Below are positions 6,000-57,371 of a stretch of DNA of 64,000 nt, in pieces. Both the position numbers and the translations under genes were made by a program. Below the pieces are notes generated by a model, which was given only the letters and a program-made list of their open reading frames with translations, was not told where the DNA came from and did not search any database. The DNA comes from a virus. Each line of letters opens with the position of its first letter. The first letter of the stretch is position 1. The stretch covers positions 1-64,000 of the IMG/VR virus record IMGVR_UViG_3300026484_000002, one strand, 5' to 3'.

Positions 6000-7838
6000 T
6001 TATTTTAATACCATTGGAGAACATTTAAATTCTCCTGCAGGTTCTACTAATTTCATAATTTCTTTCCACTCTGCTAATGTTGAAGCAGATATATTTAAAC
6101 TACGAAAATAATTTTCTAATATACTATTTCTATCTTTATATAGTTTGTCTATTTGAGATGCATAAACTTCTCTAGCTAATTCTGCATATTCACAATCAAC
6201 TATGATAGCATCATGTATATCTATACACCATTTAGCTATATTATAGACTATATTACAGGTATAATCCATAACTCTACTATCAAGATGATGGATTAATCCT
6301 GTGCTTGTCCAAGTTCTAAATTGTTGTAAATTGGGTACTTTTATAGTATCTGTATGATGAATTCTTTTAATAGATTTACTATAACTATCATATAAATCAT
6401 ATTTAATAGTTTTTTCACCTCTATTGTAGAATTTATTACATTTAACTATAAATTTCTCATTCCATATATTTAATTCCATTTCTGGTTGCATATTGGAATG
6501 AGTAGCCATAAATTGCTTCATGAGATTAGCAGGTGCTAAATTTCCTGTAGTTATGTCTTTTTCCATAGCTATAGCTTCTTCTCTAGTACCTTTTATGTCC
6601 ATAGCAGACCACATATCTAAGATAGGTTGTTTGGATCCATATAATATTCTCATAACTGACTTAGCTTGATTTCTATTAGTTATCATATCATGAGCCCAAG
6701 CATCATTTAATTTATCTTCTTCAACTATAACATTACATTCAACTAGATAAGGTTTATGTCCTAATAATAGTCCATAGTAGCTTTTGATACTAGCACTAGC
6801 ATCTAGCTCTATAGGTACTGTCCATTTGTAATTATCTGTATTAAAGTAATTATCTATATCTATATATAGTCTTTCTAACCATATGGAATCAGGTAATTCT
6901 TTAAGTTCATCTTCGTTAGATAAATCTAAATCAGGATACCATTTAGTTTTATAACATTGTTTTCCATATGCTATTTTGCCTCCTATGGTTCCAGATTTAT
7001 AACCTGCTAATTCAGCTATAAATAGATATTTAGCTTTTAAGCCTTTTTTTGTAGCTATATTACGATTAGCTTCAGGTATAACTAATAAACTTCTCATAAT
7101 TTTATAGCCAACTGGATTGCCTATTTTATTAAGATATCCAGCTATATTTCTACCTCTTGGATCTGAAGTGCGATTACCACTGTTATAGATACTACTATCT
7201 AACATGTATGAATCTATGACTTCTTTACCTATATTTCCATAATTAGCTAAATCATCTCTAAGTATTGGATATTTAATTAAAGTCTTCTCTATACCATAAT
7301 TAACTAATTTAATTACTTCTGAATAATATAGTTTCATTGTAGGTATATCAAAACTAAATTCTGTTTTGCCTGTTTTAGCAAAACCTGGTCTATATAATCC
7401 TGTATCAGATACAACACCTTTAGTACTAGTTAAATTAGCACACTTTTCATCTACTTCTATATTAGTAAGTAGATATTTATTCCATTTAAATTGTTTACGA
7501 ATAGAGGCTAATTCTTCTTTAGTAATCCATTCTAATAACTTATCTTTATTTAGTTTTGCTTCTGACCAATTTTGATTAGGCTTAGTACTAATAATAATAT
7601 AGCCTGCTTCTGATAATATTTGAAGAGTTATATTCATCAGTTTAGGTGATTTAATTTTCTGTGCCCAATAAGGTAAACTAATACTACCTTTAGCACCTTT
7701 AATTAAATATGTTCTCCACATAGCTTCAAACATATGTTGCAATTCTTTATATGCTCTCGGATCTTTAGATTGCATATTTTTAATTCGTGGCATACTGTAT
7801 TTTCCATTAAACAGTTCTGTTCTTCTATCTATTGCCAT
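6000..7838 (-). CDS. T7-type single-subunit DNA-directed RNA polymerase (middle-gene polymerase)
   Basis: Transcribes phage genes from phage promoters. From the chosen start (MAIDRRTELF, ATG 7838, AAGGAA upstream; a weaker in-frame ATG lies at 7877) the 612-aa chain shows all hallmarks of the family. These are the DxxGR motif DPRGR (about 226-230), motif A with catalytic Asp in ELDASAS (about 346), motif B KSVMRILYGSK (Lys about 393, Tyr about 400) and motif C IHDA (His-Asp about 542-543). It is shorter than T7 polymerase (883 aa) and close to the summed size of the two N4 RNAPII subunits (about 670 aa), which suggests an unsplit version of that enzyme. It sits at the promoter-proximal side of the leftward early/middle operon. 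Confidence 0.93.
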   Translation of the reverse strand: MAIDRRTELFNGKYSMPRIKNMQSKDPRAYKELQHMFEAMWRTYLIKGAKGSISLPYWAQKIKSPKLMNITLQILSEAGYIIISTKPNQNWSEAKLNKDKLLEWITKEELASIRKQFKWNKYLLTNIEVDEKCANLTSTKGVVSDTGLYRPGFAKTGKTEFSFDIPTMKLYYSEVIKLVNYGIEKTLIKYPILRDDLANYGNIGKEVIDSYMLDSSIYNSGNRTSDPRGRNIAGYLNKIGNPVGYKIMRSLLVIPEANRNIATKKGLKAKYLFIAELAGYKSGTIGGKIAYGKQCYKTKWYPDLDLSNEDELKELPDSIWLERLYIDIDNYFNTDNYKWTVPIELDASASIKSYYGLLLGHKPYLVECNVIVEEDKLNDAWAHDMITNRNQAKSVMRILYGSKQPILDMWSAMDIKGTREEAIAMEKDITTGNLAPANLMKQFMATHSNMQPEMELNIWNEKFIVKCNKFYNRGEKTIKYDLYDSYSKSIKRIHHTDTIKVPNLQQFRTWTSTGLIHHLDSRVMDYTCNIVYNIAKWCIDIHDAIIVDCEYAELAREVYASQIDKLYKDRNSILENYFRSLNISASTLAEWKEIMKLVEPAGEFKCSPMVLK

Positions 7839-7893
7839 TTTATATTCCTTATTTAAATTTGAATAGTTTATACTCATATTCAGGAGTATTTAT

Positions 7894-8622
7894 CTAATCT
7901 TCTAAAGTAAATTCATTAGAAGTAGATAGTTGTTGAGATTTTTCAATCTCTTCTAATTGCTTTTTAGCTCTACGAGTAGCTGTTTGTTCCCATTTATTAA
8001 CTAATTCTACTAGTTTTTCTTTACTAGGTAAAATTTCATATAGTTCTAATTTAACTGTAATAGATTGTAGTAACATATATAGCTCATCTATATTACTAGC
8101 CTCCCACTCTTTTACTGCTTTAAGACTTGCTAATGGCTCATCGTTGTCTATTGAATCATGTATTTCTTGTTTATGCATAGTTCTAAAACCTTCTACATAA
8201 ATACCATCTTTATTTACATAATCAACTGTACCTAGTATTTGATTGGTAATTTGTAATTCTGTAAATGGTACACCTACAATAGCTTCATATTGCATAGCCA
8301 TCTCATCTGTAAATGCTGATGCTGAACCAGTAATAATACCTATTAATTTATCTAGCCCCATTCCAAATTGAGTTACTGGAAATACTCTAACACTATATTT
8401 AGATCCATCTTTAGCTATAAATGGAGTAATGTTAATATTTAATTGATGAATGATAATATCTAATTTAGATATCTCATTACTAAGATTAGCTATTCTAGCT
8501 TGTGTCTCCATGAATGCATCATTATCTAATAGATCCATAGATGCTTCTGCCATTTTTGCTTTACGCTCTGCTACTTTCTCTGCCACTCTTGCTTCAAATG
8601 CTGTTACTGTTGCTTTATTCAT
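7894..8622 (-). CDS. Hypothetical protein upstream of RNA polymerase, 242 aa
   Basis: Very strong ribosome site (AGGAGG). Alanine/glutamate-rich helical N-terminus (about 1-60, coiled coil likely), a middle beta-rich domain (about 65-150) and a basic helical C-terminal tail (ARRAKKQLEEIEK). Its placement directly before the polymerase suggests an early DNA-metabolism or transcription accessory protein, but no family is recognised. Confidence 0.75.
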   Translation of the reverse strand: MNKATVTAFEARVAEKVAERKAKMAEASMDLLDNDAFMETQARIANLSNEISKLDIIIHQLNINITPFIAKDGSKYSVRVFPVTQFGMGLDKLIGIITGSASAFTDEMAMQYEAIVGVPFTELQITNQILGTVDYVNKDGIYVEGFRTMHKQEIHDSIDNDEPLASLKAVKEWEASNIDELYMLLQSITVKLELYEILPSKEKLVELVNKWEQTATRRAKKQLEEIEKSQQLSTSNEFTLED

Positions 8623-45156: not shown

Positions 45157-48100
45157 ATGGCTAACTATCCTGATGACTTCACTAAAAATACCAATAATGT
45201 ACTGGATCAATTTTCCCAATTAACAGACACCTACAATACTGCTGTTGACGTTATTGGTTCTGTGCCTACTTCTACAAATAAAATCAATCATCTCCAACAA
45301 AAGAAACAACAAAAAATAGATAGACTTAATCCAGATGCTACATTGGATCTATATAATAATATGGATATATATACAAATGAATATGGAATAACTAAAGATT
45401 CATTAAATAGCTATACTCCAGAACAGTTACAAGAAATGCTTGGTTCTAGTGTAAATGATAAAGTATATTATGACGATAAAGAAATAGGTCCATATCAAAT
45501 GAAACAAGATGCTGAAGGAGAATGGAATAAAACCCCTTTTAGTGGCACTACTCAACATGTGTATGTTGCTCCTAGCAAAGATGGTAATATGAAGTTAGGT
45601 TTAGCAGGTGTAGGCTTTAGAGAAAGATATACACCTGGTCTTGCTGCAAAAGAAGGATTGACTACAAATAAAAACTATGGTTGGGCTCCAGGGGAAAAAG
45701 GAGTAGATCCAACAAAAGAACCTTATTTAGATATAGCTCTTCCATATGACGAAGCTTCAAGATTAGAATTCCTAACACACTCAAATAAAGGACAAATTGC
45801 AAATAGAGCAGGTGGTGCTAGTGTTGCTGACTATATAAAAAATGTGAAACCAAATGTTTATGGCAAAGGAGCGAGTGAATATACAACACAAAATGCCCCT
45901 ATGTGGAATATAAATTCCAGCAATACAGATTTACCAGAGCAAGTAGTTACTCCACATATTCCTAAGTTTTTAGGTGATACTAGTACGCCTAGATCAAAAG
46001 CAATAGGTGTAATCCATGATAATGCAGAATACGAAGGTGAGCCTCTGCTAGGACAATTTGCAGATGGAGTTGCTAGAAATGCTAGAGGATTTGCTGGTGG
46101 AGTAGCGAGAGTCATTGGTGATACTGCAAAACTAGCTAATGATTTAGAAACTAGAGCCATTTATGAATCAGCAAAAAGACTTTATGATTTCAATGAGAAA
46201 GATGCAAATGAATTAGCAGATAGATTTCAATTTTTAACAAAAGAAAAACTAGATACCATGGAAAATGCTATAGCTGGTGAAGATTTTGTTACTGCTACAG
46301 CTGATGATACTAAGAAAATGGAAGAGCATCAAAAGAAAGCTTTTAAGGATGTTACTTGGTCAGATCCAAGTTCATATGGTAAAGTCAATTTACCTGAAGC
46401 ATACAATATGTTTAAGACAGGTTTATCTAGCCCAGAAATGACTTTTAAATCACTAGGCTATATGCTCGGAAACCTAATAGGTCTTCCTGAAAAAGCAGCA
46501 ATCAAAATGGCAGGCAAAGGAACTTTAAAAGCACTTGAGTACAATGCAAAAAAAGATGTTGCAAAAGAGATGTTAAGCAAAGCTGCCAAGACTGATAAGC
46601 TAATTGCTGCTGGAAAAATAACAACTGAAGATGCTGTAAAAAAAGGCATGACTTTATTGGATCCAGCCAAGAAAGCCATGTATGAAAAAACTATTCAACT
46701 TAGTGACAGAGCATTAAGTAAAATTCCAATTAAAAATAAATTCAATGCATTCGTTGCAAAAAATGCAAACATACTACATCTTGGAGCTGTAACTAATGAA
46801 CAGGATATGGATGATTACTACGAAAAACACGGTGAAAGAGCATCTCTACAACATGCATTATTAGGTTTTGCTGCAAATGCTGTAGGAGCAAAAATAGACT
46901 TATGGGCTGATAAAACTGCATTAATGGGAACAAAAGAAGGCTTTTCTGCATTAATTAAAAAAGCAGGTAAAACAAGAGCACAAAAGATGCTTACAGGAGT
47001 AATTTCTGGTGCAGCAAAAATGGCAGAAGGTGGTATTGCTGAGCTTCCTGCAGAATATATTCAGAGTGGGATCCAAGCTTTCAATAATACATATAAAGAT
47101 GATAATGCAGCAGAAGCTTTAACCAAAGCATTTCATGATGCAACACAAGGTGCAGCTTTCGGAGCAGCAAGTGGTATTCATATGGCAGGTCCTAGTGCTG
47201 GATCTAACATTATTACAAATACATTTACTGAAACTGATAGTGATAAAAGCTATGAAAATAAAATTACATCTGACACAGAACCAACAAATGCAACTTCTGA
47301 TGAACAGGCACAAGATTTAGCACTTGATAAGCTCTATACACACTTGCATGAAAAAGGAGAACCATTATCTGAAGAAGATAAACCTTTGGCTCATGCATCA
47401 GTTGAGCGTCATTTAAACAATACTTTACAAAGTCTTGCATTAGCTGAAGAAAATATAAATGCTGAAATTGCTAAAGAAAATCCTGATACTGAATTTATAG
47501 GTTCTCTCGAAAAAGAAAAAGAAAACCTTGAAGATAAGATTTCTATTTTACTTGATATGCGTAATCATACTGCAGAAGATGGAGTTATTTATAATAATAG
47601 ACCAATAAAAGAAATAGACAATGATTTGACACAAACAATAGAACAACTCAACAATGAGCCTAAAGATCCAAAACTGATTAAGAAAAAACGACAGTTATTG
47701 TTAGAAAAATATATAGCCAGTCATCCTTTAGCAAAAAAAGCCAATGAAAATGGTGAAGATACTGAAGATTCTGAAGCAACTTTCGATACAGTATTGTCAC
47801 AAAAATTATATGGAGGAGTGACCAAGGATGGATATAGAACTGGTATTGTTAATATGGTCACTCCATTGTTTGATGACAGTATAAGTGAACATGGAAAGCG
47901 AGCTGTTAAAAATAATATAGAAAGATTTCTTGAATCTCAATCAGCCAAAGAAAAGGCAATCGAAGCAGCTAAGACTAAATTTGAAGAACAAGGAAAAGAT
48001 GCAGAAGAGAATCCAACACCTGTTATAGCTAGATATTTTACTCCTACAGGTACTGAAGCTACTTTTGAATATAGAGGTATTGCTTCAGAAAAAACATTAG

Positions 48101-49782
48101 AAAAAATAAAAAAAGAAAACGAGTTCTTGCATAGTATTCTTCATTATGCAACCAATCCTGTAGAATTGGAATCTATAGTATCTGACATTGGTTCTAATCA
48201 ATCTGATAAAAATGCTCCTGATGATTTTTTTGATGCTTCAAAAGGAGAACCTAGAAGCAACCATGCTTTAGAATCTGAAGAAGGAATAAATACTAATTTT
48301 GAAAATAAAAAAACACATATACTAAATAATACTGAAGATACTTCTGAAACACAAAACACTATAGAGAATAAAATCACAGAACTAAATGACTTATTAGGCA
48401 ATAAACAACACGAGAACTTCAGTAAACAGCTAGAAGAAACCATTGAATCAATTCCTTCTTTTTCAACTGATATACTAAACCAACTAAAAGATACAAGAGG
48501 ACTTAAAAGTTATGTTACAAATGTAAAAAATGGTATAAACCTTATGCCAAAGCTTTTAACACGACTCACAAAAGAACCAAATGAGCAAGGTACTCCTACT
48601 TGGAACGCCAGAGCTTATAGAGCAGTTACTGCATTAGAAAAGTATGCCAAGGCTGCTAATAAAATAATAGAAAGTGAAGCATATCAAAAAATACAACAAA
48701 ATGCTTTTCAGGAAAAGTTGCCCAATATAGAACAGACAGCATCTAATACTAACACTAGTATGAATGAAGTTTCTTTTGACGCAGATGAAGCTCCTTTTGA
48801 TATTTCTAATATTGATATAAACACAGAACCAAAAGAAAACAATAATATTAGTACGCAAAACAACACAGTTGAGATTGGATCCAATGAAACAAAAAAAGAA
48901 ATTGGATCAAACGAGACAACAGATAGTAAACTTAACGAAACAAGCAATAACAAAGATTCCAAAGAAGAAGTAGAAACAACTCCTAAAATGGATAGTACTG
49001 GATCCAATGACTATAAAATTCCAGATATGGAAACAAAACAATCAAGTGAGGCATCATTAAGTAATGAAGCACCATCAAATGTTGTCAGTAAAGTAAAAGA
49101 ACAACAGCAACCCAATAAACAAACCAAACAAGCTGAGCAGCCAAGTAAAGAAAAGGTTGAATCAAATAACAAATCTAATAAAGAAGCAAATAATAAAGAA
49201 GTAAAAGAAGTAAATGATAAAGAAGAATCAAAGAACGTCAAAACAGTAGATAACCATGGTCCGATTGAAAGAAAAAACAAATCTGATACTTTTTACAAAA
49301 ATGATACAACATATAAAGATCCTATAAAACAGAAGGAAAAACAATTAGTAAATAGTGTTGTCGGTAAATTGCAGACAATATTGAATAACTACGAAAAGAA
49401 ATACAAAGAAGTAGAAACTACTTTAGGCACCGACATTAAAACAATAAAAGCAGAAAGAGCTAAGCGTACTAAATCACTAAAAGAATTTACTGGAATTAAA
49501 GATATTGCATCTAGAGGAAAAGTTAAAAAGAAATATTTTTACGAAGACTTAAGTATAACTATTGAAGACTTATTAGAAGATATAGATGAGAATAGTTATC
49601 TTGGAAAAAATATAATAGAAGAAGTAAATAAAATTCGACCTAATAGTAAAATAGGTATTGAAATACTTGAAAATAATAGTATCTCTAAAACAATAGAAGA
49701 ATCACTAACTAATATGCTTGATAAAGAGATCATAAGTGAAGATGTGATAAACTCTCTAGAAGAAATAACAGGATGTAACTAA
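45157..49782 (+). CDS. Giant internal virion/ejection protein, 1541 aa (N-terminal part of N4 vRNAP equivalent)
   Basis: N-terminal mixed domain (1-350). Then a region of amphipathic, alanine/glycine-rich helices (about 440-680: SLGYMLGNLIGLPEKAAIKMAG; ELPAEYIQSGIQAFNN; GAAFGAASGIHMAG) typical of phage DNA-ejection proteins that insert in membranes. Next a helical part, a 150-residue low-complexity N/K/E/S linker (about 1220-1400, with repeated GSNET) and a small C-terminal helical domain. The stop overlaps the ATG of the virion RNA polymerase (TAATG), so both are made in similar amounts. Corresponds by place to the N-terminal third of N4 gp50. Confidence 0.7.
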   Translation: MANYPDDFTKNTNNVLDQFSQLTDTYNTAVDVIGSVPTSTNKINHLQQKKQQKIDRLNPDATLDLYNNMDIYTNEYGITKDSLNSYTPEQLQEMLGSSVNDKVYYDDKEIGPYQMKQDAEGEWNKTPFSGTTQHVYVAPSKDGNMKLGLAGVGFRERYTPGLAAKEGLTTNKNYGWAPGEKGVDPTKEPYLDIALPYDEASRLEFLTHSNKGQIANRAGGASVADYIKNVKPNVYGKGASEYTTQNAPMWNINSSNTDLPEQVVTPHIPKFLGDTSTPRSKAIGVIHDNAEYEGEPLLGQFADGVARNARGFAGGVARVIGDTAKLANDLETRAIYESAKRLYDFNEKDANELADRFQFLTKEKLDTMENAIAGEDFVTATADDTKKMEEHQKKAFKDVTWSDPSSYGKVNLPEAYNMFKTGLSSPEMTFKSLGYMLGNLIGLPEKAAIKMAGKGTLKALEYNAKKDVAKEMLSKAAKTDKLIAAGKITTEDAVKKGMTLLDPAKKAMYEKTIQLSDRALSKIPIKNKFNAFVAKNANILHLGAVTNEQDMDDYYEKHGERASLQHALLGFAANAVGAKIDLWADKTALMGTKEGFSALIKKAGKTRAQKMLTGVISGAAKMAEGGIAELPAEYIQSGIQAFNNTYKDDNAAEALTKAFHDATQGAAFGAASGIHMAGPSAGSNIITNTFTETDSDKSYENKITSDTEPTNATSDEQAQDLALDKLYTHLHEKGEPLSEEDKPLAHASVERHLNNTLQSLALAEENINAEIAKENPDTEFIGSLEKEKENLEDKISILLDMRNHTAEDGVIYNNRPIKEIDNDLTQTIEQLNNEPKDPKLIKKKRQLLLEKYIASHPLAKKANENGEDTEDSEATFDTVLSQKLYGGVTKDGYRTGIVNMVTPLFDDSISEHGKRAVKNNIERFLESQSAKEKAIEAAKTKFEEQGKDAEENPTPVIARYFTPTGTEATFEYRGIASEKTLEKIKKENEFLHSILHYATNPVELESIVSDIGSNQSDKNAPDDFFDASKGEPRSNHALESEEGINTNFENKKTHILNNTEDTSETQNTIENKITELNDLLGNKQHENFSKQLEETIESIPSFSTDILNQLKDTRGLKSYVTNVKNGINLMPKLLTRLTKEPNEQGTPTWNARAYRAVTALEKYAKAANKIIESEAYQKIQQNAFQEKLPNIEQTASNTNTSMNEVSFDADEAPFDISNIDINTEPKENNNISTQNNTVEIGSNETKKEIGSNETTDSKLNETSNNKDSKEEVETTPKMDSTGSNDYKIPDMETKQSSEASLSNEAPSNVVSKVKEQQQPNKQTKQAEQPSKEKVESNNKSNKEANNKEVKEVNDKEESKNVKTVDNHGPIERKNKSDTFYKNDTTYKDPIKQKEKQLVNSVVGKLQTILNNYEKKYKEVETTLGTDIKTIKAERAKRTKSLKEFTGIKDIASRGKVKKKYFYEDLSITIEDLLEDIDENSYLGKNIIEEVNKIRPNSKIGIEILENNSISKTIEESLTNMLDKEIISEDVINSLEEITGCN

Positions 49783-52700
49783 TGAGTTGTAATATAAAAG
49801 CAGGACATATAATAGAAGGTATAGGAAAATATTTAAAAGATGGTGATAATGCTACAGCAAATAAGTTGCAAAATGCATTAAGAGATACTACAAATTTATC
49901 TACTCACTTTACTATCGACTTTAAAAGTAAAAGTAAGTTAGATGATTATTCTAAAGAATATGACAGTAATAGCAACAACCTTACTACTACAGAACTTCAC
50001 ATAAACAATTCAATAAGTAATTTCATTGAAAAAGCTGTGGATCTAATTCCTAGTGTGGATAAAACGCTTCCATCTATTGAAGGTGAAATTTCACAAGGAT
50101 GGCAAAGTGTTATCTCTTATTTTATTCGACCTGAAACAATAAAATCAACAGATAAATATGGAACTACAAAAGAAAAAATTATTACTAGACTTGATCCTGA
50201 TGTTCAAAGAGCAGTATCTTTAGTTACTTCTGAATGGTTAAACAATGATGCATTAACAGGCATTTCTGAACTAAGAGGTGATGATGGAGTTAGAGCTCTG
50301 CTTGGTATGGGGACAAAAGATATCGTTACTAAAACTGAAAGAGATGCTGTAAGAGATATTGACGGTTATGTTGGTGAAGCTGCTAGGCAAATGGGTAATA
50401 AAATCTACAGCATGTTAGGCATAAGAGCAAAAGCAAATTCTCCACAAATAAATAATAAACTGATTGAAAATACATTAAAAGTAGAATTAGGTTTGTTGGC
50501 TCTAAAAACATTGGAATACAATGGAGATATATCATTGAGCAAAAAAGACATTATACTGAACGAAGAAGTTATTAGATCCCAAGTGTCAGTATATCAATTC
50601 AACAATAAACATAATAACAACATTAATCTAAATACTCCTAATGGGGTTCTTCCTTTGTCAATAAATGACAAATATAATGATATCAAATTTAGTAAAATAT
50701 TTACTGATAAGGTAAATGAAGTAATCAACAATAAAAGAATTGCAGGGATTTATACTGATCCAAAAGAAGCAATACCATCTTATGATGAAATAAAAAATAA
50801 TGGTGTAACTGGAATACTAGGTAATATAGTCAGTGAGGCACATAAGAATGCTGTACAAAATTCTAGTAGTACCGCCTATGAATTTAAACATGGGTTTATT
50901 AAAGGTGTAGAGTATGTAGAAAAAGCCCTTAAAAAAGCTATGGGGTATAAAGATGAAGCTAAAACTACCAAAGGACTAAGAGAAGCCACTAGAGGTAAAA
51001 ATTTAGCCATAGATATGCAGTATGATAATTTAATGAATGCATATAATACTGTAGGTTTGAGCAAAAAAATGTATGCTAAATGGGAAGTTATTACTAATAA
51101 TAGATTTATGATTGATAGCAACCAACTTAATTGGCAAGATAAAAAAATGCATAGACAAAGTGTATTTTTTGAACCTGTTGTGGTTACTGAAGAAAATAAA
51201 AATGATTTCTATATGATGTTAGGTCAATCTTTTGATTTAGATATAGATAAACATTCTCCTGATGTGGTCAATAAAGCTGTTGAAGATTTGTTTAAGGATA
51301 TTGAAAAAAATACAAAATTATCAGTTACTAAAAGAACTAAAAAAAGTTTAGACTCTTATTATAATAGTAAAGATTACAAAAAAGATATTGAAACATTATT
51401 TAAATACATAGTTGATAATTACAACAGTAGTGAGCCTGAACATGCATTAAGTGGTGCAGTTGAGCTTCTGGGTTGGATGCACGAAACTAAAGCAAGTAGA
51501 CCATATACTACTCAATCTATGATAGAGACTGATGCTATTACTTCTGGATATGCAATCAAAGGCTTGATGTTTCCATTTCATGATAATAAAGAAGAAATTA
51601 ACTGGAGTGAATTTGAACGCACAGGAATATTTACTGCTGATGCAGAAATTACTGATTATGGAGAATGGAAAGATAATGAAGACAATAAAGATTCTTATGA
51701 AGTTCCAGCAGAAATGCTTACTGAAAAATTACAAGCATTATACACAGAAGATAATACAAAAGAAATTTCAGACATTATAAAATTAATTGACAAGAAAGCT
51801 AAATTTGATAAAGATGGAGAACTAGTCTCTATATCTCGTAACTTTATGAAGAATCCTTTTATGGTTCTAAACTATGGTAGTGCTATTAAATCTATCATTA
51901 GAGCTGTTAGTAAACATGCTGAAGATGAGTTCTATCAAACTTTAGATGCACTTTTCAACAGTAAAGAAAATAGCAATAGAAAAGAACTACAAACTAGTGT
52001 TTTAAATGCAATAGCAACTATAGCTAAAAGAATGAATCCTATCTTTGATGTAGATGGTGAAATTATAGGATTTGATAGAACCAAAGCTAATTCTACATAT
52101 AAATCTATTATCAATAGATTTAAACACGAAGGCTTAGAATTTGAACTTACTTCACAAGAAGCTACAGCTCTAAGAGAAAGCATATCAGATTTTATAGGAG
52201 AACCACTAACAAAAACATTTAAAGAAAAATATGGTAGATTTATAGAATTAACTACAACAATTAATGAATCTATGGTTGCTCAATTTAGAATAGCAAATGA
52301 AGTAATTGAAAAAGAAATAGAAAAACTTCACCAAGAAAAATTAAAAGATGCTAGTGGTAATGAAAAACTTGTAACTCCTATGACTGATAAAGAGTATCAA
52401 GAAATAGTACAAAGTGTAGCCAATATTCTGCCTGTTGTAAATACAGCATTGGATCTGGTTGAAGGTGGTAAAGCTCCATTATTGATAGCAGAATTAAAAG
52501 CTATAGATAATAGAGAAGTATGGGGAAATACTAGTACTAGTGGTTATGTCCGCAGCAAGTTCACTAAAAACACAAAAGAGTCAGATGTTTATATTAATAG
52601 TGCTCCTGCACAAGTTAAGAGATTATTAGAAGCATATTCTTCTGGTTCTGTAATACCTATTCATTTCTTTGATGGTAGTATTCAAGCCAAATTATTAGCT

Positions 52701-53279
52701 AAGCTAAAAGCTCTTGGAGTACATGATGCCAACTTCTCTCCTATAAATATGACTATAGAAGTAACTAAAGCGTATAATGAAATATTTTGGGAATTAGCTA
52801 GAGAATATAGTTTAGCAAAAGAAATTAGAGAAAGTTATTTAAATAGCTTAACCGCATTAGATGATGATATTGTTACAGCATTAAACAGTAAATACTCAGA
52901 AACATTGAAGGATAGTTCTAAGATCCCATATACAAAGACTTTAAGTAAATTAAACAAGCAATTAGAAAATGTACATATAGAAGCTGAAAATAAAAGAGAG
53001 AAGATATTTACTACTCCTGTAGTAGTTAATCAAGCTTATTATAACAATGGCACTGAAAGTGCAGCATATATACCTAATAAAAATGAATACACTAAACAAA
53101 CTATAGATGAAGATCTTGTAAACAATGCTGCTGACAAATTAAAACGATATAATAATATATCACTTGAAAATAATGCTGATATACCAACTGATATGACGCA
53201 AACGCAAGCTTTGATTAGTGATAAAGATGCTAAAATAGCTATAAATAATGTTATAGAAAATAATAATAAGGAATGTTAA
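49782..53279 (+). CDS. Virion RNA polymerase (N4 vRNAP-type catalytic core), 1165 aa
   Basis: All catalytic parts of the N4 virion polymerase are present at matching spacing. Motif T/DxxGR-type NNRFMIDSNQLN has Arg441 (N4 R424). Motif A ETDAITSGYAI has Asp584 (N4 D559). Motif B RNFMKNPFMVLNYGS has Lys690 and Tyr698, eight residues apart as in N4 K670/Y678. Motif C GVHDANFSP has Asp982 (N4 D951), with PIHFFDGS before it. Such polymerases are packaged in the virion, enter the cell with the DNA and transcribe early genes from hairpin promoters. In N4 the core is the middle of a 3500-aa protein; here it is a separate gene flanked by two giant coupled genes. Confidence 0.88.
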   Translation: MSCNIKAGHIIEGIGKYLKDGDNATANKLQNALRDTTNLSTHFTIDFKSKSKLDDYSKEYDSNSNNLTTTELHINNSISNFIEKAVDLIPSVDKTLPSIEGEISQGWQSVISYFIRPETIKSTDKYGTTKEKIITRLDPDVQRAVSLVTSEWLNNDALTGISELRGDDGVRALLGMGTKDIVTKTERDAVRDIDGYVGEAARQMGNKIYSMLGIRAKANSPQINNKLIENTLKVELGLLALKTLEYNGDISLSKKDIILNEEVIRSQVSVYQFNNKHNNNINLNTPNGVLPLSINDKYNDIKFSKIFTDKVNEVINNKRIAGIYTDPKEAIPSYDEIKNNGVTGILGNIVSEAHKNAVQNSSSTAYEFKHGFIKGVEYVEKALKKAMGYKDEAKTTKGLREATRGKNLAIDMQYDNLMNAYNTVGLSKKMYAKWEVITNNRFMIDSNQLNWQDKKMHRQSVFFEPVVVTEENKNDFYMMLGQSFDLDIDKHSPDVVNKAVEDLFKDIEKNTKLSVTKRTKKSLDSYYNSKDYKKDIETLFKYIVDNYNSSEPEHALSGAVELLGWMHETKASRPYTTQSMIETDAITSGYAIKGLMFPFHDNKEEINWSEFERTGIFTADAEITDYGEWKDNEDNKDSYEVPAEMLTEKLQALYTEDNTKEISDIIKLIDKKAKFDKDGELVSISRNFMKNPFMVLNYGSAIKSIIRAVSKHAEDEFYQTLDALFNSKENSNRKELQTSVLNAIATIAKRMNPIFDVDGEIIGFDRTKANSTYKSIINRFKHEGLEFELTSQEATALRESISDFIGEPLTKTFKEKYGRFIELTTTINESMVAQFRIANEVIEKEIEKLHQEKLKDASGNEKLVTPMTDKEYQEIVQSVANILPVVNTALDLVEGGKAPLLIAELKAIDNREVWGNTSTSGYVRSKFTKNTKESDVYINSAPAQVKRLLEAYSSGSVIPIHFFDGSIQAKLLAKLKALGVHDANFSPINMTIEVTKAYNEIFWELAREYSLAKEIRESYLNSLTALDDDIVTALNSKYSETLKDSSKIPYTKTLSKLNKQLENVHIEAENKREKIFTTPVVVNQAYYNNGTESAAYIPNKNEYTKQTIDEDLVNNAADKLKRYNNISLENNADIPTDMTQTQALISDKDAKIAINNVIENNNKEC

Positions 53280-56200
53280 ATGAAATGTACTATATACGCT
53301 TTAGGTGAATACCTTGATGAGAAAGAAGATCTGCCAAAAGTCATAAAAGAATTAAGAAAATTAGATAAGTCAGATAAGTATTTTCCTGACAGTGAATACA
53401 AAAATTTAGCAAAACAAGCAATATTGGATCACAACCAAGCTTATCAGCTTATGGAAGATCTTGATGGTAGATTTAGATATGAATACGAGAACCAATACCA
53501 TGTTGTAGATATTAAAAATATAGATATAAATAACAATAAAAATGAATTAAATATAGTTCTAGCAGATAATACTACTATCAAATATAAGATAGATAATAAA
53601 AACCTAAAAGCTATTAATCATCCTTTTTATTCAAGAGATCTTGAGTTGCAATGGAATGATGTTGTTAGCTCACCTATTGAGCTTTTATTTAATGGGGTTG
53701 ATGCAAAAAGTAAAAATCTAGATAATATTATAGAAGGAAAAGAACTCCTTGATGGTAATATTGAGGCAATTCAAACAGAGTTAAGTAAGTTAGATAGAAT
53801 AGCTCCTAACAGTTCATGGGATCAAGCTCATAGCAATCATTTAAAAGAAGTAATAAGTCGCATAAGTAGATCTGCTGACGAATTAAAAACAGTACAGATA
53901 AAAGTAACTAAAAATTTAGTTGAAAATCTAAAAGAACCATTGGGTAGCTATAATACAAAAAGTAGAACTATCCAAGTTGCTACAGCAGAAGCAATGACTA
54001 AATTTGGAATGAGCAATGAAGAAACATTGGCTCATGAATATCTTCATGCAGTATTAGATATTTTATTCAATAAGCAATTAGGTGTTATGGGTGAAGATAT
54101 AAAAAATGATTTACGAAAATTATATGTACAAGCTAAAAAGAATATAACCTGGAAAGATTTAATGCCTGCTAATGAACTACACAGTAAAGCAGCAGAAAAT
54201 AAAGCTAAAGAAATATACGATTATATTTTTATTGGTAAAATTGGAGATAATAGTGTTGAAGATGCAGAAGTAAGATTAATGGAATTTCTAGTTTATGGTA
54301 TGACCAATAAAGAGTTAAAATCAGCCATAGATAAAATATCATTAAAAGTCAAACCTGTGAAAGCTAAGTCTTCTGGTTTATCTGGCATCTTTGAATATTT
54401 AATGGAAAAATTACAAGATTTAGTTTTTAAAATTAAAACCAAAACAAATAGAAGTGATAATGTAGGGTCAGAACTTACAAGATTGGTTTATAAGCTTGGA
54501 ACAATAAATAAAATGTATGCTAAAACTATTGAGAACAATAAAAACTTACCATTAGATGAAAAAATATTCTCATCTGTAGATAAGGTTTTTAGTAAAATGG
54601 ATAAAGAATTAGGCAAAAAAGTTGAGTCTATAACTAATGATTTTCTAAATGAAAAAGATGGTGATAAAATCTACACCAACGATTTAATAACTCAAGTTAA
54701 AATGCTCAGTAAAGAACTCACAGAAGCTTATAACAAAGGCAAAATTATAAAAACTGCATGGTTATCCATTAAAGGTATATTTGTCATTATGAAAGCTTAT
54801 AGATTATCTAAACAAAGTAAAAATGAAAATATTCAACGATTGTATAAAGAGTTGGATCGTTTACTTCGTAGGATGGATGAATTTGCTGGTAAGTTTATAT
54901 CTGATCTTCTCAGGGATTTCAAAGAGGGAAGAAAGACATTGGTTCAATTAGGTGACATAACTATGCAATTTAAAACCCAATTAGATCGTGTTAAAGACAT
55001 GTATTATAAAGGAACACTTAATGATATTTTTTCTGGTTTTACTAAAGTGGATCTCACTCACGAAAGACATAAAAAACTTAACCAATCTTTAACAAATGTT
55101 ATATTACGTACAGATGTACAAAGTTTCACTACCGATGTTAATGAACTTAAAAAATACATAACAGATGATAAAAAATTATCTAACACTATAAAAGAATTAG
55201 AAGATGAATTAAGTCAAGCTATGTTTAATAGCAAAACATCTACATTAAATGTAGGTCCATGGGTTGTTAATGAATGTAAAGAATTAGCTTCTTATATGAT
55301 ATCTAGAAAAGGAAAAAGAAATAATGCAACTAATATATCACATTTATTTGGAACCACAGAAAGTGTACCTTTAGATGAAAGCTTAAATGGACTATGGAAT
55401 ATTCAAAATATAGAAGAAAAAATAGATAAACTTACTAGCCTTTATGCTCTAAAAAACACAAGTATAGAAAGTAAAAAAGCATTAATTGAATTAATTGATT
55501 TAGATAAAAATGGAGTTCAGAATTATTTAGAAATAACTAGAGGAATGGTTGCTTCAACAAAAGAAGATTGGTTCGTAACTGGATCTTTATCTGAAATGGT
55601 AAAAGGACAAATACATGAAACTCACAATAAAGATAAAGAATTAGTTTTCGCTCCTTTAAATGAAACAAATGCAATGTTAGAAGCTGGTTATTCTTTGGTT
55701 AGGAAATTAGACAAAGATGCTGGAGATATTGATATTAAAAATTATGGTTTATTTGTAACTAACACAAAAGGAGTTACAAAAAGAGTTGATGGAGCACTGG
55801 GTCTTCAAAGAATAAAAATTCCAGGACTATTGCTAAGTCAAAAAATTATGATGTCAAATAAACATTTAACTGGAAAATCTTTAGGAAGAAAAATTAGAAA
55901 TGCTATAAACAATGCTAGAGTAAATGGAACAGATGGAAAAATGTATCCAGTTTATAATGATTTAGGAAATATAATTGATTACAGATATGAATTTACATTA
56001 GATGAGGCAGAGCAATATATGGATTTGGAAACTAGAGGTTCTGAAAATTTAGCTAGAAGTTTTGGTCAAAAAAGTTCACAAATTATTACTGATGAACACA
56101 ATAAAGAATTAATAGATTTAATTATGGAAGATTCTAAAAAAATAACTAATGAAAACAAAGATCAATTCTTGCGTGTTCATGCAGTTGAAAATACTGATGT

Positions 56201-57371
56201 AAACAGTGGATCCAAGATTGATACTTTAAATGCTATGACTGAAGGTGAAGAACTATGGGGATTGCTACCAGCAGATGCTAGAAAATATATTATTGAAAAA
56301 AATATTGAAAATCTTAATGATCCAGATAACATTCCTAAAAAAGAAATTTATATCAGTAAAGATTTATTAAAACAGTTGTTTGGTTATGATGAATTAAGTA
56401 TTGCAGATAGTAAATTGTTTAAAAAAATGGATGTTAAAAATAAAAATAGAATTAGAATGATAGAAGCTTGGTGGATGGATTTAATGCAAATTGCAAAAAG
56501 TATGGTAGTTGTTAAAATGCCTAGTACTATTATAGGAAATATTTTAAGTAATGCTAAATTCTTTATGTTCTCAGGAGTATCTCCTAGAAAGGCTATACAA
56601 TACTTATTGTTAAGTAAAAAAAGTTTGGATAAATGGAAAAAGAATGAAAAAGCTAGACGTGATTTAGAAAGAAAAATTGATATAGCTACCGGATCTAAAA
56701 AAGAACAATTATTGAAACAATTAGCAGATTTAGCTTTAGAATTAAAAGATAATCCTATTATGCCATTAATTGAAGCTGGGTTATATCAAACTATTGCAGA
56801 AGATATTGACACAGAAGATTCAACTAATAGAGTTGTTCAATTATTAGATAAAACATTAGATCCAATTTATAGTAGCAATAAAACTATTGAAGATATTATT
56901 AATACAGTATTTCTTACTAAGAAAAGTACATTAGGTCAAGGATTATTACATATAATGCAAGAAAGTGACTTTCATTTTAGATCAGCTATATATTGGGATG
57001 GTATTGAAAAAGGAATAAGTAAAGATAAGATGTTGAGAGATGTTACAGATAAATTTATTAACTATAGTCGTGTAACTAATAGTCGTTTAATTCATTGGTT
57101 GGATAGAATGGGACCAGAAGCTTTTTGGAAATATTTTGCAAATATACAAAGAGTAAATTGGAGTTTAATGAAGAAAAATAGTACTAAAGTAATTTTAGAT
57201 ACTACAATAAAAGAAACTGGAGTTCCTTTGTGGTCAAATGATGTATTAGATAGTTCTATTATTTATCAATTTGGTAGAAGATTTAACCCATTAAATTGGA
57301 TCAATAATACAGAAGGATTGTTAAATGCAACAGTTGATGTGCCTATTACACATTTGATTGATGGATATTAA
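53280..57371 (+). CDS. Giant internal virion protein with zincin metalloprotease motif, 1363 aa (C-terminal part of N4 vRNAP equivalent)
   Basis: AAGGA site, first base after the vRNAP stop. Around 251-256 it contains AHEYLHA, a HExxH zinc site, and about 80 residues later EVRLMEFLVYGMTNKEL (Glu about 335), the usual third-ligand region of the metallopeptidase domains found in large phage polyvalent proteins. Long helical middle. The C-terminal third (about 840-1360) has tryptophan/tyrosine-rich blocks such as FWKYFANIQRVNWSL. Likely packaged and injected with the polymerase; the protease may process internal proteins or act in the periplasm. Confidence 0.75.
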   Translation: MKCTIYALGEYLDEKEDLPKVIKELRKLDKSDKYFPDSEYKNLAKQAILDHNQAYQLMEDLDGRFRYEYENQYHVVDIKNIDINNNKNELNIVLADNTTIKYKIDNKNLKAINHPFYSRDLELQWNDVVSSPIELLFNGVDAKSKNLDNIIEGKELLDGNIEAIQTELSKLDRIAPNSSWDQAHSNHLKEVISRISRSADELKTVQIKVTKNLVENLKEPLGSYNTKSRTIQVATAEAMTKFGMSNEETLAHEYLHAVLDILFNKQLGVMGEDIKNDLRKLYVQAKKNITWKDLMPANELHSKAAENKAKEIYDYIFIGKIGDNSVEDAEVRLMEFLVYGMTNKELKSAIDKISLKVKPVKAKSSGLSGIFEYLMEKLQDLVFKIKTKTNRSDNVGSELTRLVYKLGTINKMYAKTIENNKNLPLDEKIFSSVDKVFSKMDKELGKKVESITNDFLNEKDGDKIYTNDLITQVKMLSKELTEAYNKGKIIKTAWLSIKGIFVIMKAYRLSKQSKNENIQRLYKELDRLLRRMDEFAGKFISDLLRDFKEGRKTLVQLGDITMQFKTQLDRVKDMYYKGTLNDIFSGFTKVDLTHERHKKLNQSLTNVILRTDVQSFTTDVNELKKYITDDKKLSNTIKELEDELSQAMFNSKTSTLNVGPWVVNECKELASYMISRKGKRNNATNISHLFGTTESVPLDESLNGLWNIQNIEEKIDKLTSLYALKNTSIESKKALIELIDLDKNGVQNYLEITRGMVASTKEDWFVTGSLSEMVKGQIHETHNKDKELVFAPLNETNAMLEAGYSLVRKLDKDAGDIDIKNYGLFVTNTKGVTKRVDGALGLQRIKIPGLLLSQKIMMSNKHLTGKSLGRKIRNAINNARVNGTDGKMYPVYNDLGNIIDYRYEFTLDEAEQYMDLETRGSENLARSFGQKSSQIITDEHNKELIDLIMEDSKKITNENKDQFLRVHAVENTDVNSGSKIDTLNAMTEGEELWGLLPADARKYIIEKNIENLNDPDNIPKKEIYISKDLLKQLFGYDELSIADSKLFKKMDVKNKNRIRMIEAWWMDLMQIAKSMVVVKMPSTIIGNILSNAKFFMFSGVSPRKAIQYLLLSKKSLDKWKKNEKARRDLERKIDIATGSKKEQLLKQLADLALELKDNPIMPLIEAGLYQTIAEDIDTEDSTNRVVQLLDKTLDPIYSSNKTIEDIINTVFLTKKSTLGQGLLHIMQESDFHFRSAIYWDGIEKGISKDKMLRDVTDKFINYSRVTNSRLIHWLDRMGPEAFWKYFANIQRVNWSLMKKNSTKVILDTTIKETGVPLWSNDVLDSSIIYQFGRRFNPLNWINNTEGLLNATVDVPITHLIDGY

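Follow-up and report, generated by a model that had tools for sequence, protein, structure and literature searches.

The gene at positions 6000 to 7838 of the window (the whole 64,000-nucleotide stretch analysed here) is predicted, from its sequence and its modelled structure, to encode a complete and minimal T7-fold single-subunit RNA polymerase. This enzyme probably takes the place of the second RNA polymerase (RNAPII) of phage N4, a heterodimer of gp15 and gp16. Within one clade of phages that encode a virion RNA polymerase (vRNAP), the enzyme is found both undivided and as a pair of subunits, the cut falling at a single hinge between the DxRGR segment and the palm, and the one-chain form is favoured as the older. 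According to a 2015 review, all species with a vRNAP bar two have a heterodimeric RNAPII, both exceptions have gp16 divided between two genes, and where the heterodimer came from and what benefit it brings "remain unclear" (PMC4496689). A literature search, with the original AD45 paper outside its scope, found no description of a single-chain RNAPII in vRNAP phages.

The record, from an uncultivated virus, is 91,281 bases long; the window covers its bases 1-64000 and has a G+C content of 30%. The polymerase reading frame lies on the minus strand, is open throughout and ends at 6000. Its possible starts are at 7877 (625 aa) and 7838 (612 aa). The ATG at 7838 is preceded by AAGGA 8 bases upstream, in a context shared by most relatives at the equivalent place, whereas the start at 7877 lacks a Shine-Dalgarno sequence; the 612-aa form is therefore preferred. 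The same unbroken gene is found in independent contigs at 79, 71, 46, 46, 47, 43, 35, 35 and 32% identity. The dN/dS ratio is ~0.15-0.3 and is alike in the N-terminal part, the junction and the C-terminal part, as under purifying selection. Given this conservation and selection, the open frame is taken as real, neither a chance occurrence nor an assembly error. The features are located in Table 1.

Table 1. Polymerase features and associated genes in the window
Feature	Position	Strand	Basis or remark
Single-chain T7-like RNA polymerase, 612 aa, probable N4 RNAPII counterpart	6000..7838	-	ORF, Shine-Dalgarno, AlphaFold2, Foldseek
DPRGR (DxxGR) motif, residues 226-230	7149..7163	-	D226, R228, R230 invariant in ten single-chain homologues
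Junction linker PEANRNIATKKGLKAK, residues 255-270	7029..7076	-	Alignment of unsplit, split and Schitoviridae proteins
Motif A ELDASAS (D346)	6789..6809	-	Aligns with T7 FDGSCSG, N4 LDATSSG; D346 invariant
Motif B R389xxxK393x6Y400GS	6633..6674	-	K-Y gap one residue shorter than in T7, N4 and other relatives
Long beta hairpin, residues 470-502	6333..6431	-	Predicted strands 470-484, 489-502 (AlphaFold2)
Motif C IHDA (H542-D543)	6207..6218	-	Invariant; aligns with T7 IHDS, N4 VHDC
242-aa gene, mostly helical, candidate partner or cofactor	7894..8622	-	Directly upstream of the polymerase
Virion RNA polymerase region, three ORFs (45157-49782, 49782-53279, 53280-57371)	45157..57371	+	phrog_2206 "virion RNA polymerase", E 9e-119, 3e-84, 2.5e-10

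Motif residues are numbered on the 612-aa form, and their invariance was judged across the ten single-chain homologues. D226-P-R-G-R230, D346, Y400-G-S402 and H542-D543 are invariant or nearly so in this set, and DPRGR aligns with DWRGR of T7 and DKRGR of N4. The initial annotation had described one 612-aa chain with the T7-family motifs. The chain, its frame and the motif positions are confirmed, with DPRGR, D346, Y400 and H542-D543 rightly placed; the departure is the K393-Y400 spacing, which is 7 and not the usual 8. The pattern Rx3Kx6Y is present in all seven window-type proteins and Rx3Kx7Y in all 22 others compared, namely the T7-like (four), Schitoviridae (eight) and AD45-type (six) proteins together with L038, L039, L041 and L047. 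In the window type, R and K keep their i, i+4 spacing and K stands 7 instead of 8 residues before Y. The motif B helix is broken at residue 394 in the AlphaFold2 model. As read from the alignment, the window's subclade is marked by this one-residue contraction of a catalytic motif, a shared derived trait and a small novelty.

The AlphaFold2 model, built with 20 homologues, covers the 612 residues with a mean pLDDT of 93.2 and a pTM of 0.89; the linker residues 250-270 exceed a pLDDT of 90. The DxxGR motif, the motif A aspartate, the R..K..YG signature and the HD pair of T7-like single-subunit polymerases are brought together in one fold, and the predicted structure has the three-dimensional fold of the T7 and mitochondrial enzymes. 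The hairpin would sit at the position of the T7 specificity loop. Over the whole chain, the best Foldseek matches listed are mitochondrial and T7 RNA polymerases (E about 1e-13 to 1e-12; POLRMT 7.5e-14, T7 7.5e-12), and a fold search of BFVD gives phage RNA polymerases as best matches. N4 RNAPII is absent among the 50 best Foldseek matches listed, presumably because its two chains are stored apart. A heterodimeric RNAPII has two subunits, gp15 up to DxxGR and gp16 with motifs A, B and C. Here one ORF covers both regions, so the protein is filed as the single-chain counterpart only.

The relatives were recovered by alignment-based searches of IMG/VR and amount to about 17 lineages, the window included. 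Neither a viral contig search with the single window protein nor a GTDB genome search with a two-row alignment retrieved anything, and patterns derived from alignments were needed. A mixed alignment of Schitoviridae gp16 and the window protein offered no stretch conserved enough to serve as a search query. The gene is unsplit in ten lineages (the window, L023, L033, L034, L035, L036, L037, L039, L041 and L047; 574-676 aa), where L036 and L024 denote the same contig. It is split at the same junction in seven (AD45, L038, L043, L045, L046, L048 and L050). By alignment, the junction linker is the site both of the gp15 end and gp16 start in N4 and of the AD45-type gene split. In N4, gp15 ends with "...LEFAEKEVID" and gp16 begins with "MQTFTAREYLKIDIAN", and this boundary aligns to the short linker that joins the DxRGR segment to the palm. 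AD45-type N-subunits end with "...ALVITYED" and the C-subunits start with "MKTECNAVFLFIAEL". In L038 a small ORF started by GTG lies within the linker. Its C-subunit start "MRHIATKDGAEAVFLFIAEL" (MRHIATKDG) keeps the linker of the unsplit forms, which is "NRNIATKKGLKAKYLFIAEL" in the window. Every C-subunit start examined in the split members has its own Shine-Dalgarno sequence, so the two halves are genuinely separate genes.

Alteromonas phages vB_AmaP_AD45-P1 to P4 are the nearest isolate homologues, with 34-36% identity to the window polymerase. They resemble the window phage in the gene order with the upstream gene of 216-242 aa and in the presence of a vRNAP, and differ in having the polymerase gene in three pieces instead of one. 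The three PHROGs families matched by the window protein (residues 24-267, 349-529 and 529-624 in the numbering of the 625-aa form), all of "unknown function", correspond to the neighbouring genes gp044, gp046 and gp048 of AD45-P1. Once joined, these pieces can be aligned with the window protein over the full length, at 36% identity. The two gaps differ in kind. The gp044/gp046 gap is a true two-gene division at the N4 junction, where an 84-aa ORF separates the genes. The gp046/gp048 gap, placed before motif C, consists of a group I intron (RF00028, E 4.6e-12) and, after it, a GIY-YIG ORF, and this intron accounts for the split gp16 counterpart of AD45. AD45 may well be one of the two exceptions mentioned in the 2015 review.

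Two group I introns interrupt the split polymerase of L050, one at each of motifs A and C (E 2e-16 and 4e-18), and an HNH-family ORF accompanies them. The introns within split polymerase genes, all at motif A or motif C, lie at L050:6013-6311, L050:6943-7204 and L002:7806-8060, and those at motif C adjoin HNH or GIY-YIG ORFs. The thymidylate synthase gene of AD45-P1 (L008:11480-13745) is likewise fragmented, its parts separated by HNH and GIY-YIG genes, so interrupted genes are common in this phage. Two further isolates were observed. In Vibrio phage CHOED (L018, 1157-4349) a single-chain RNA polymerase gene is annotated with an intron and two small ORFs. The 249-kb record of Enterobacter phage SonariX (L017, PQ898399.1 192806-199044) contains an RNAP1/RNAP2 pair of the N4 type, closely similar to the one in Pectobacterium phage CB4; the record is possibly a chimeric assembly.

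The initial annotation had left two origins for the single chain, ancestral or secondarily fused. The phylogeny leans towards an ancestral unsplit chain, favoured rather than proven. All trees were built without the linker columns. In the tree that includes T7-like RNA polymerases, Schitoviridae (96/92) and the window clade (100/100) are each recovered, and within the clade so are the seven window-type members (100/100) and the six AD45-type members (100/99). The unsplit L047, L039 and L041 are basal in this tree, weakly; the branches that place L039, L041, L047 and L038 have 40-57% bootstrap. Parsimony over 1000 bootstrap trees with T7-like outgroups reconstructs the ancestor of the clade as unsplit in 792, ambiguous in 204 and split in 4. 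Forcing all split forms into one group, as a single origin of splitting would require, is rejected (p-AU 0.0003), which implies two or more events. The main weakness of this reconstruction is the very long branch that joins the clade to Schitoviridae and the T7-like enzymes (~2.5-3.7 changes per site). The subunit ends fit separate splits, since in our reading of the alignment the Schitoviridae gp15 proteins end just past a "LAxxxPIG"-like stretch and the AD45-type N-subunits a few residues sooner. Rooting of the clade through the vRNAP was considered and dropped, as the vRNAP and the RNAPII of the window have different histories.

The strongest competitor, although an unlikely one, is that the ancestor of the vRNAP phages was already split and that the unsplit gene arose once in the clade by in-frame fusion of gp15- and gp16-like genes. 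Every Schitoviridae member checked is split, and with Schitoviridae as the only outgroup a weak branch (49/89) can set the unsplit members apart. By the AU test neither the monophyly of the unsplit forms (p 0.31) nor that of the split forms within the clade (0.43) is rejected. The L038 C-subunit, whose start matches the unsplit linker, could represent a state before fusion. On the other hand, when T7-like outgroups are included the unsplit forms are monophyletic in 4% of the bootstrap trees, and the clade ancestor is split in 0.4%. Moreover, the unsplit linker is about as long as that of T7, is collinear with T7 "LAKGKPIGKEGYYW" with one-residue gaps, and appears as an ordered element rather than as translated intergenic sequence.

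An independent gain of a T7-type polymerase (Autographivirus or mitochondrial-like), not orthologous to N4 RNAPII, is improbable. It agrees with the Foldseek ranking, with the lack of a convincing gp15 alignment for the N-terminal half and with the lack, throughout the clade, of the ~60-100 aa insertion that precedes motif C in Schitoviridae gp16. The fold ranking is the expected outcome for an N4 enzyme deposited as two separate chains, which lowers its rank in a whole-chain comparison, and all sequence-profile tests place N4 gp16 above the T7-like families. A PDB search with the profile of the ten unsplit proteins gives N4 RNAP2 (6dt7_B) as the sole significant match (E 7e-4); mitochondrial RNA polymerases come next at 0.13, none of them matching at sequence level below E 0.1 in that search. 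With hhalign, the unsplit profile matches Schitoviridae gp16 at E 2.5e-12, improved to 2e-13 once the split homologues are added, and four T7-like polymerases at E 5e-7 across DxRGR, linker and palm. The L047 polymerase matches phrog_2051 at E 1e-10 and the T7 family phrog_414 at E 4e-5; phrog_2051 is the N4 gp16 family, matched by N4 gp16 itself at E 5e-172. The 612 aa are also closer to the minimal 673 aa of N4 than to the 883 aa of T7, and the near kin of the AD45 group split the same gene at the N4 site.

The special relation to N4 RNAPII put forward in the initial annotation thus holds for the C-terminal half, where the profiles support N4 RNAPII as the nearest relative. The N-terminal half aligns with gp15 only in the DxRGR region (hhalign E 0.11), and its relation to N4 would rest on fold and motif. 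Best matches to T7-like or mitochondrial enzymes with no tie to N4, the result named beforehand as fatal to this relation, are seen in part in the Foldseek search, and the profiles of the C-terminal half go against it.

Compared with known enzymes, the window polymerase is like N4 RNAPII (gp15-gp16; PDB 6DT7, 6DT8 and 6DTA, chain RNAP2) in its T7 fold, minimal size and motif order, and in coming from a phage that also encodes a vRNAP. It differs in being one chain of 612 aa instead of two of 269 and 404 aa and in its motif B, Kx6Y against Kx7Y. With the T7/Autographiviridae enzymes it shares the single chain, fold, motifs and collinear linker, but these have 800-883 aa and a larger N-terminal domain, their profile similarity to the window polymerase is weaker than that of N4 and, unlike them, the window polymerase belongs to a phage with a vRNAP and a genome above 90 kb. 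The mitochondrial polymerases (POLRMT, Rpo41) are the best fold match, yet have 12-14% identity.

Two further readings concern the gene itself. It is highly improbable that the ORF yields two products, through programmed frameshifting or slippage of transcription on the linker's A AAA AAA run, or through an internal start, with release of a gp15-like piece. The A7 run (window 7044-7050) is of the slippery type, in the right frame and exactly in the linker, and the shifted frames run for just a few codons before a stop. However, 14 such in-frame runs occur in 34.8 kb of AT-rich coding sequence, and a programmed frameshift was discarded as the close relatives L023 and L033 lack the run. A hidden GGAGG with a start just past the linker was likewise set aside, being incompatible with the L023 protein at that place (VKGK). 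Lastly, an assembly or gene-calling artefact that joined two genes is scarcely credible: the contig is metagenomic, but the unsplit gene recurs in about ten lineages from different metagenomes and purifying selection spans the junction.

The window phage shows, from the genes it carries, a probable N4-type early transcription. It encodes the vRNAP typical of Schitoviridae, though in three ORFs instead of one of ~3500 aa, and its large terminase matches phrog_38; of the seven hallmark genes of that family, the analysis covered these two. A vRNAP is encoded by at least six phages with the unsplit gene (the window, L024/G001, L034/G003, L035/G004, L039/G007 and L047/G012) and by three with the split gene. 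N4 gp50, the N4 vRNAP, is a giant virion protein with separate N- and C-terminal domains. It is a divergent member of the same superfamily as the 612-aa enzyme and the product of another gene, of which the window phage also has a counterpart.

In most of the clade, a C-terminal vRNAP domain of 1300-1450 aa is a separate ORF. The vRNAP ORFs measure 1419+2514 aa in AD45, 1391+2310 in L043, 1337+2447 in L038, 1292+2346 in L036 and 1459+3841 in L034, while L047 has one 3700-aa frame; records L064, L065, L066, L069, L070 and L071 were compared with window 45157-57371 in this respect. The divided vRNAP of AD45 has been put down to a gene-calling error or read-through (PMC10654107). A clade-wide split is a better explanation. 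The same survey of N4-like viruses in IMG/VR dropped vRNAPs below 2500 aa (PMC10654107), a filter that would have left out phages like that of the window. The two polymerases of the window differ in their histories: by a wide margin, the vRNAP nearest to that of the window (49782-57371) belongs to the L039 phage (L070; E 3e-220), and the nearest RNAPII proteins are those of L023, L033 and L036.

According to the 2015 review, the second polymerase of N4 is made from early RNA and transcribes the middle genes with gp2 and probably gp1 (PMC4496689). By analogy, a role as middle RNA polymerase is inferred for the window enzyme. The injected vRNAP would transcribe the early genes, among them the 612-aa polymerase gene, and the 612-aa enzyme would then transcribe the middle genes, probably with a phage cofactor. 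The gene directly upstream is the best candidate for such a partner. A homologous gene (175-242 aa) precedes the polymerase in all 17 clade loci aligned, immediately so in nearly all of them; in AD45 two small ORFs lie between. The 242-aa protein is predicted to be helical (pLDDT 80) and gave no useful Pfam, PDB sequence or fold match. A tblastn search of the window with N4 gp1, gp2 and gp14 returned chance matches only, a method that distant homologues could escape.

As to its origin, the favoured view is that the single chain goes back to a T7-like ancestor. The heterodimers of N4 and AD45 would then be separate splits at the hinge, where small ORFs gathered afterwards. A fuller account can be offered tentatively. 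The common ancestor had a single-chain RNAPII and the heterodimer came from two or three separate hinge splits (Schitoviridae, the AD45 group and L038), after which cargo ORFs occupied the gap. Beyond the cultured Schitoviridae, many vRNAP phages would never have split the gene, and the window's subclade would have re-spaced motif B.

A single-sequence PDB search with the window polymerase found no meaningful match, and a Pfam scan of the 612-aa protein and its ten homologues found no polymerase match. A family unseen by Pfam and of "unknown function" in PHROGs will escape annotation. The unsplit lineages supply a missing state, vRNAP phages with an undivided enzyme beside close relatives with a divided one. 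One clade now offers both forms of the enzyme for comparison, which makes the origin of the two-part enzyme of N4 testable, and the halves can be split, fused or co-expressed in direct experiments.
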